From a virus: a stretch of 27,080 bases of DNA. The number at the start of each line of letters is the position of its first letter. The stretch's first letter is position 1. The stretch lies in IMG/VR virus record IMGVR_UViG_3300001833_000005, positions 1 through 27,080 of that record. The stretch is one strand, 5' to 3'. Of this stretch, positions 3,615-4,610 are shown one piece after another. The notes below the pieces were generated by a model that had not been told where the DNA came from, searched no databases, and saw only the letters and a program-made list of their open reading frames with translations. The translations under genes were made by a program, and so were the position numbers.

Positions 3615-3624
3615 TGTGATCACA
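3615..3624. promoter_or_regulatory. TGTGATCACA palindrome, copy 1
   Basis: A perfect 10-bp palindrome in the context TTTGTGATCACATTT. It lies just before a TATACT box at 3630-3635. The half-sites TGTGA/TCACA resemble CRP/FNR half-sites but abut directly, without the six-base spacer that CRP needs. Confidence 0.65.
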
Positions 3625-3666: not shown

Positions 3667-3676
3667 TGTGATCACA
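3667..3676. promoter_or_regulatory. TGTGATCACA palindrome, copy 2
   Basis: A second perfect copy in the context ATTTGTGATCACATTA, 52 bases after copy 1. Confidence 0.65.
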
Positions 3677-3700: not shown

Positions 3701-3710
3701 TGTGATCACA
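3701..3710. promoter_or_regulatory. TGTGATCACA palindrome, copy 3
   Basis: A third perfect copy, extended to the 14-bp palindrome TTTGTGATCACAAA (3699-3712), 34 bases after copy 2. Three identical palindromes within 96 bases of non-coding DNA strongly suggest an operator set or replication iterons. Confidence 0.7.
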
Positions 3711-3793
3711 AAGGGTAGGCACAAGGGGGTTTGGGGCATCCGCATATATGTACAATGTGACAAAAAATTATCTCACTAAAATTTCACTAAGGC

Positions 3794-3832
3794 AAAAAAA
3801 ATAGGCCCACCCAGTATTTACCTGAGTGAGCC
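3794..3832 (-). terminator. leftward intrinsic terminator
   Basis: Read on the minus strand, GGCTCACTCAG pairs with CTGGGTGGGCC over all eleven positions (two G-U pairs) around the loop GTAAATA. It is followed by TA and eight T. On the plus strand the same stem has two C/A mismatches, so the element is clearly oriented leftward. No leftward gene lies upstream of it in the window. Confidence 0.8.
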
Positions 3833-3931
3833 AGAGGAGAAAACGAAAGTGTCCTTAGGATAAGCTATAGACAACTAATTAATAATAATTATAATTATAT
3901 ATACATATACACTATAGCAGCCCCAAGGGAT
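3794..3931 (-). ncRNA. candidate leftward small RNA, about 138 nt
   Basis: A perfect-consensus sigma70 promoter (3937-3965, minus) and a strong intrinsic terminator (3794-3832, minus) bracket about 138 bases with no usable reading frame; the only ATG, near 3903, is followed within three codons by a stop. The predicted RNA begins near 3931. It contains an inverted repeat, GCTATAG/CTATAGC on the RNA strand (3918-3912 and 3870-3864), closing an AU-rich loop, then a short UCCUAAGGA element, a CU-rich single-stranded stretch and the terminator stem. That layout fits a regulatory small RNA, possibly Hfq-type with its U-tail. The target is unknown. It is divergent from the late operon. Confidence 0.6.
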
Positions 3932-3936
3932 AATTT

Positions 3937-3965
3937 ATTATACCACTATTTTACACAGTTGTCAA
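3937..3965 (-). promoter_or_regulatory. perfect-consensus sigma70 promoter, leftward
   Basis: On the minus strand TTGACA (3965-3960), a 17-base spacer and TATAAT (3942-3937): both boxes and the spacing match the sigma70 consensus exactly. The predicted start is near 3931. It points away from the late genes and toward the leftward terminator at 3794-3832. Confidence 0.8.
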
Positions 3966-4013: not shown

Positions 4014-4042
4014 TTGACAAACAAAACGAATCATGTTAAGAT
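4014..4042 (+). promoter_or_regulatory. sigma70-like promoter of the late rightward operon
   Basis: TTGACA (4014-4019), a 17-base spacer and TAAGAT (4037-4042), with a predicted start near 4049. This is 31 bases before the small-terminase ATG at 4080 and explains why the upstream part of that open frame should not be counted as protein. It lies about 50 bases from the divergent perfect-consensus promoter. Confidence 0.6.
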
Positions 4043-4079: not shown

Positions 4080-4610
4080 ATGCCATTATTTAAAATGAGC
4101 CAACTAAAGGGTCCGAATGGCAAGTGTAGAACTAAAAGTTTATTCTATGAATTGTCATACTACGACACCACTGACGTTATCTTCACAACAAAAGAACATG
4201 ACATAACAGTCAAAGATAAACTTTACGTGTCCTTACAACAGTTATTCGTAAGTATGGTTCCAAACGATCCGACTGAGTATGAGTTTGCTCAGGCAGTTTT
4301 TGGTTCTTGGGATGTATGGAAAACTATATCAGAAGCTCCACAAGTAAAACCTTACGTAAACAACTGGCGCAACGAAGTAGTTGTCAAAGTTAAATCACAA
4401 GCTATTCAAGCTATAGCTGAAGAGATGAGATCTAACGGAAGAAGTTCTTTCTCTGCAGCTAAACTTCTATTGGACAAAGGCTGGTTAGATAATGAGACAG
4501 CCTCACAAGCTAAGAAGAAGTTAAAAGCTAAAGAACAAGAAGAAGAGAATAAACAAGCATTGTCACTCCTACAAGACGATGCCCAACGATTAGGATTAAA
4601 GGTAAACTAG
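4080..4610 (+). CDS. terminase small subunit (DNA packaging), 176 aa
   Basis: The protein recognises concatemeric phage DNA and recruits the large terminase. The central part (LYVSLQQLFVSMVPNDPTEYEFAQAVFGSWDVWKTI, about residues 48-83) and the following PYVNNWRNEVVVKVKSQAIQAI and FSAAKLLLDKGW segments match the pattern I associate with small terminases of marine podoviruses: a helical DNA-binding region, an oligomerisation helix, and a charged Lys/Glu-rich tail (AKKKLKAKEQEEENK). I chose the ATG at 4080, ten bases after AGAGGA; the frame is open to a TTG at 4014 but a promoter occupies that stretch. It is unusual that the large subunit is separated from it by about 7 kb of fibre genes. Confidence 0.65.
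   Translation: MPLFKMSQLKGPNGKCRTKSLFYELSYYDTTDVIFTTKEHDITVKDKLYVSLQQLFVSMVPNDPTEYEFAQAVFGSWDVWKTISEAPQVKPYVNNWRNEVVVKVKSQAIQAIAEEMRSNGRSSFSAAKLLLDKGWLDNETASQAKKKLKAKEQEEENKQALSLLQDDAQRLGLKVN

Follow-up and report, generated by a model that had tools for sequence, protein, structure and literature searches.

A putative noncoding RNA gene reading outward beside the predicted genome end of a Veravirus-like roseophage

In bacteriophage T7, the promoter phiOR lies near the right genome end and reads outward toward the terminal repeat, and in phi29 a noncoding RNA, the pRNA, is encoded at a genome end beside the packaging functions. The OOP RNA of lambda is a short RNA with its own sigma70 promoter and an intrinsic terminator, which is located beside a divergent phage operon and is antisense to cII. 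For lambda PreS, VP882 VpdS and other trans-acting phage sRNAs listed in a review (PMC12197685), targets or effects have been reported. The roseophage locus analysed here shares with OOP its size class, its two transcription signals and its position beside a divergent operon, whereas no gene lies opposite the RNA and no phage target was found for it. Like PreS and VpdS, the RNA is proposed to be made by host polymerase and to act in trans; unlike them, it has no Rfam match and belongs to a T7-like podovirus. It differs from phiOR in that the promoter is of the host type and the RNA stops at a terminator ahead of the repeat. To our knowledge, there is no sequence relation between the RNA and the phi29 pRNA, and its absence from the sister genus Siovirus argues against a packaging role of the phi29 kind.

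The window, that is, the whole stretch of 27,080 nucleotides that was analysed, was placed by its terminase and its first late gene with CRP-5, ICBM2 and CRP-4, and represents a Veravirus-like roseophage (Zobellviridae, Cobavirinae). We take its host class to be Alphaproteobacteria, with hosts of the Roseobacter type. Two gene arms, early and late, are found in its relatives. Cobaviruses are marine phages distributed worldwide (PMC6775973), and phages of this group carry no RNA polymerase gene of their own (PMC6775973, PMC6918029). Since the cultured relatives are too diverged, a DNA search of phage records with the RNA interval as the query gave zero matches. Relatives were therefore gathered by anchoring on the neighbouring protein (phrog_8035), which afforded 80 loci in viral contigs, and the conservation counts given below rest on 63 distinct upstream regions among these loci. 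The features of the locus are collected in Table 1.

Table 1. Predicted features of the RNA gene and its surroundings in the window.
Feature	Position	Strand	Basis or remark
ATTGTACATA, predicted start of the direct terminal repeat at the genome end	3747..3756	minus	homology to ICBM2
37-bp spacer with AGTGAAATTTT/AGTGAGATAAT direct repeat (11 bp)	3757..3793		homology to the edge of the ICBM2 direct terminal repeat
Putative noncoding RNA, about 138 nt	3794..3931	minus	start inferred 6 nt after the -10; model R1 matches in relatives
Intrinsic terminator, 11-bp stem and 8-T tail	3794..3832	minus	sequence
Unpaired linker ACACUUUCGUUUUCUCCUCU	3833..3852	minus	unpaired in ensemble; place of the CGUCCAGAUUCU motif in other clades
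Closing stem, 3′ arm (UCCUAAGG)	3853..3860	minus	shares bases with the conserved UAAGGACA motif
AU-rich inner region, bounded by GCUAUAG/CUAUAGC arms	3864..3918	minus	variable length and sequence
Closing stem, 5′ arm (CCUUGGGG), start of the 5′ element	3921..3928	minus	8 pairs
sigma70 promoter TTGACA-N17-TATAAT	3937..3965	minus	exact in the window and 52/63 distinct relatives
Divergent late promoter TTGACA-N17-TAAGAT	4014..4042	plus	sequence match
First late gene (phrog_8035), probable small terminase subunit	4080..4610	plus	homologues directly precede terL

A sequence-only reading of the window had described a perfect sigma70 promoter on the minus strand followed by a textbook intrinsic terminator, and our analysis confirmed both. 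The -35 element TTGACA (3965-3960) and the -10 element TATAAT (3942-3937) are separated by a 17-nt spacer, with a TG before the -10 and A/T tracts upstream of the -35. No second exact TTGACA-N17-TATAAT site exists in the 27-kb window, and none arose in 100 dinucleotide shuffles. At the same place, the promoter is exact and equally spaced in 52 of the 63 distinct relatives, nearly always together with a terminator, while seven others match at 11/12 positions and four at 9-10/12; the divergent late promoter that faces it usually matches at 10-11/12. The terminator stem (3832-3804) includes 7 G-C pairs and is followed by the tail TATTTTTTTT, which runs to 3794, and it is predicted to function on one strand only. 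One compensatory change, from C-G to G-U, was observed in the terminator of L027, and the stem of L034 is intact in spite of its unrelated sequence.

The promoter had also been said to match the host consensus exactly and to drive an early RNA. The match holds for the general sigma70 consensus of the E. coli type, but more than 60% of alphaproteobacterial sigma70 promoters have no T at position -7 (PMC8407463). The term early was not supported, as the gene is situated at the end opposite the early arm and, in relatives, perfect promoters are likewise found ahead of the major capsid gene. In view of these capsid-gene promoters and the frequent lack of -7T, neither the host consensus nor early expression should be taken from the promoter alone, and the timing of transcription is not readable from promoter strength. 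Exact TTGACA-N17-TATAAT sites were located near the major capsid gene at 28106 in CRP-5 and at 28619 in ICBM2 (minus strand of the records), and these phages thus use near-consensus host promoters at other places too. Apart from this, a plus-strand promoter was noticed inside the RNA gene (3868-3895; 11/12 in the window), which is seen in the subclade of the window; in L030, where it lies about 214 bp ahead of the late gene, the match reaches 12/12. Such a promoter could yield an RNA antisense to the 5′ end of the RNA.

Between promoter and terminator, no open reading frame of at least 50 aa was present on the minus strand, in agreement with the sequence-only reading, and an encoded peptide of that size was rejected. 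The RNA from 3931 to 3790 has a predicted folding energy of -41.4 kcal/mol (z -3.7), which bears out the foldable region with its GCTATAG/CTATAGC arms (3918-3912 and 3870-3864). The plus strand of the interval folds less well (-26.4 kcal/mol, z -2.2) because G-U stem pairs turn into A-C mismatches. The CU-rich stretch that had been pointed out is present, but its conservation does not extend beyond the subclade of the window. We considered UUUUCUCCU as an anti-Shine-Dalgarno element and rejected this role, as its CUCC is missing even from L027 and L030, which are close relatives. The 5′ end of the RNA pairs with UCCUAAGG in the window, in place of the local 5′ hairpin of other clades. All seven distinct sequences of the subclade keep this closing stem of 8 pairs intact, with two pairs varying on one side only; since the stem pairs hardly vary, covariation within the subclade was not significant (153 of 500 shuffles reached the same level).

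Comparison of 56 distinct RNAs with a detected or read-off terminator gave lengths of 111-261 nt. Their bodies are largely unalignable between clades and the middle is not conserved, yet a set of parts recurs in order, comprising a 5′ hairpin, an AU-rich CUAUAG/UAUAUA stretch, a pre-terminator motif and the terminator. The first 22 nt have an average folding energy of -5.3 kcal/mol, compared with -1.1 for other windows of the same RNAs, and the fifth stem pair of the hairpin is C-G, G-C or A-U depending on the phage (AUCCC/GGGAU, AUCCG/CGGAU, AUCCA/UGGAU), the compensatory changes being found in one clade. At the 5′ ends of W, L072, L075 and L089, a local hairpin was no better than in shuffles. 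In the pre-terminator motif, CGUCCAGAUUCU or a near variant comes after UAAGGACA immediately ahead of the terminator; CAGAUUC, or a sequence much like it, stands at this place even where clades cannot otherwise be aligned. The motif is mostly unpaired in most clades (mean 0.65). In the subclade of the window, only its first half UAAGGACA is retained, followed by CUUUCGUUUUCUCCU, and the second half is not conserved.

In the covariance search in related phages that had been suggested as a check, model R1, built on the window's subclade, found the orthologous place in some other clades, though weakly (E 1e-5 to 0.01). Two lineages with inserted genes, L032-L034 (porin-like) and L014 (HNH), keep the RNA unit further upstream; in L034, a gene for a porin-like membrane protein (1424-1774) separates the probable small terminase gene from the late promoter. 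A lack of promoter and terminator in related phages, which would speak against the RNA, was encountered only outside the clade, where Siovirus (SIO1, ICBM1, ICBM3, P12053L) has a short interval at that place and no such promoter, and, to a lesser degree, in CRP-4, whose outward promoter is weak. Rfam release 15 gave no match in the window above the gathering cut-off, and the best sub-threshold matches under relaxed thresholds were at chance level. A term search of the cobavirus papers PMC6775973 and PMC6918029 gave no mention of a noncoding RNA. Taken together, the conserved promoter, 5′ hairpin, motif and terminator strongly support the earlier proposal of a discrete host-transcribed RNA divergent from the late operon. 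From these comparisons, we regard the existence of a noncoding RNA gene as highly probable, and a stand-alone gene transcribed by host RNA polymerase as very likely. As start and stop signals recur in almost all close relatives examined, the gene very probably exists and benefits the virus, and it would represent a genuine family of noncoding RNAs in Veravirus-like phages, one for which our searches found no earlier description.

The RNA gene is found next to the right-hand end of the genome and reads outward, with the probable small terminase gene on one side and the predicted cut on the other. The direct terminal repeat of ICBM2 is known from PacBio data (PMC6775973); it is 159 bp long and begins with ATTGTACATACA. 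Homology to ICBM2 placed the predicted genome end of the window between 3756 and 3757, and the RNA gene would therefore be the last unit of the late arm. The terminator ends 37 bp before this predicted cut, and the same spacing was found in about half of the distinct relatives (37-105 bp overall), so no fixed geometry seems to be needed. Similar direct repeats occur between terminator and cut site in relatives, and the 37-bp spacer is a candidate recognition (pac) site for terminase. Within the predicted terminal repeat, three TGTGATCACA palindromes (3615-3624, 3667-3676 and 3701-3710) were observed, which recur in relatives. The phrog_8035 gene is called hypothetical in the annotation of relatives and is separated from terL by tail-fibre genes in Cobavirinae. 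Its product is probably the small terminase, because homologues directly precede terL in VP41s3 and CW02; its predicted structure is of low confidence (mean pLDDT 60).

Regulation of host or phage mRNAs had been among the roles suggested for the RNA, and the searches of the phages' own genomes and of bacterial genomes for the exact motif revealed no target. In eight of nine phage genomes, the longest stretch complementary to the phage's own linker was no better than in shuffles, the exception being a 13-mer of G007 inside the DNA polymerase gene (4/100 shuffles). An exact scan of 84,980 species genomes with the full motif returned 44 scattered matches and no Rhodobacteraceae cluster. Hence we see no target in the phage and none shared by hosts at large. 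A 17-mer of the RNA motif, GGACACGTCCAGATTCT, is also present in sense orientation in terL of other Veravirus-like contigs (L288, L313, L320, L327, L335 and L012), because the WTRPDS codons are conserved there; an identity of the motif with these terL codons was rejected, since motif and terL do not agree within single genomes. No likely late or early gene overlaps 3794-3931, and a cis-antisense arrangement of the OOP or sar type was thus not found. The most economical reading, and a plausible one, would be a trans-acting RNA with host-specific partners; we give a trans-acting regulatory role an even chance.

Several other explanations were weighed. The locus might be an outward end-of-genome promoter like phiOR, whose importance would lie less in the RNA than in transcription itself, which could prime replication through an R-loop in the AT-rich stretch or open the concatemer junction. 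This would suit a gene directed toward the genome end at a distance of 37-105 bp from the cut, the CUAUAG/UAUAUA stretch after the promoter in nearly all clades, and phages devoid of their own RNA polymerase (PMC6775973, PMC6918029). However, features are conserved at the RNA level, the terminator halts transcription before the junction, and Siovirus has no such RNA although its terminase is related and its terminal repeats are of the same kind; the last two points count against this explanation as well as against a packaging RNA, and we consider it unlikely. The RNA might also serve as a decoy, titrating an RNA-binding protein or RNase of the host instead of pairing with RNA. This would be in line with the strong promoter, variable body and short conserved unpaired motif, but no known protein-binding motif was recognised, and we judge it distinctly unlikely. 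It is also improbable that in these T7-like phages RNA, terminator, adjacent repeat and probable small terminase make up a packaging or genome-end module, confined to a single genus, that helps to recognise termini or to process concatemers.

In concatemers, the promoter could read across the terminal repeat into the early arm as an attenuated leader, if an antiterminator overcame the terminator as in the lambda 6S/Q system. In the joined arrangement of the window, it is indeed the only sigma70-like promoter of at least 10/12 facing the early arm; in virion DNA, however, it stands at the opposite end, which makes this explanation very improbable. Moreover, antitermination would be needed, terminators are present in 56 distinct RNAs, and in many relatives another site, TTGACA-18-TAT.TT, stands some 290-350 bp into the early arm. 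A packaging RNA that binds portal or terminase and is needed for DNA packaging, as the phi29 pRNA is, would fit the order of probable small terminase, RNA and cut site, the similar size range and the location at the genome end, but we consider it very improbable, as Siovirus packages without the RNA, the length varies more than twofold and no strict structure is common to all clades. Chance occurrence of a functionless promoter and terminator is negligible, for although phages of the group have several other consensus promoters, all parts are conserved in order in about 60 distinct loci and shuffles predict no such promoter in the window.

As a whole, a stand-alone noncoding RNA gene, made by host polymerase and acting in trans, is our best explanation, which we think equally likely to hold or to fail. 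Host RNA polymerase with the primary sigma factor would start near 3931 on the minus strand from the near-ideal promoter and make an RNA of about 138 nt, stopping at the intrinsic terminator just before the terminase cut region. The 5′ hairpin or the closing stem probably protects this RNA. The segment left exposed just ahead of the terminator probably works in trans, either pairing with a host RNA or binding a protein, which would favour infection. In a genus whose phages have no RNA polymerase of their own, a strongly promoted and conserved RNA would give convenient access to the control of Roseobacter hosts by phage RNA. As its gene adjoins the packaging site, a single deletion would suffice to test for an unusual role.
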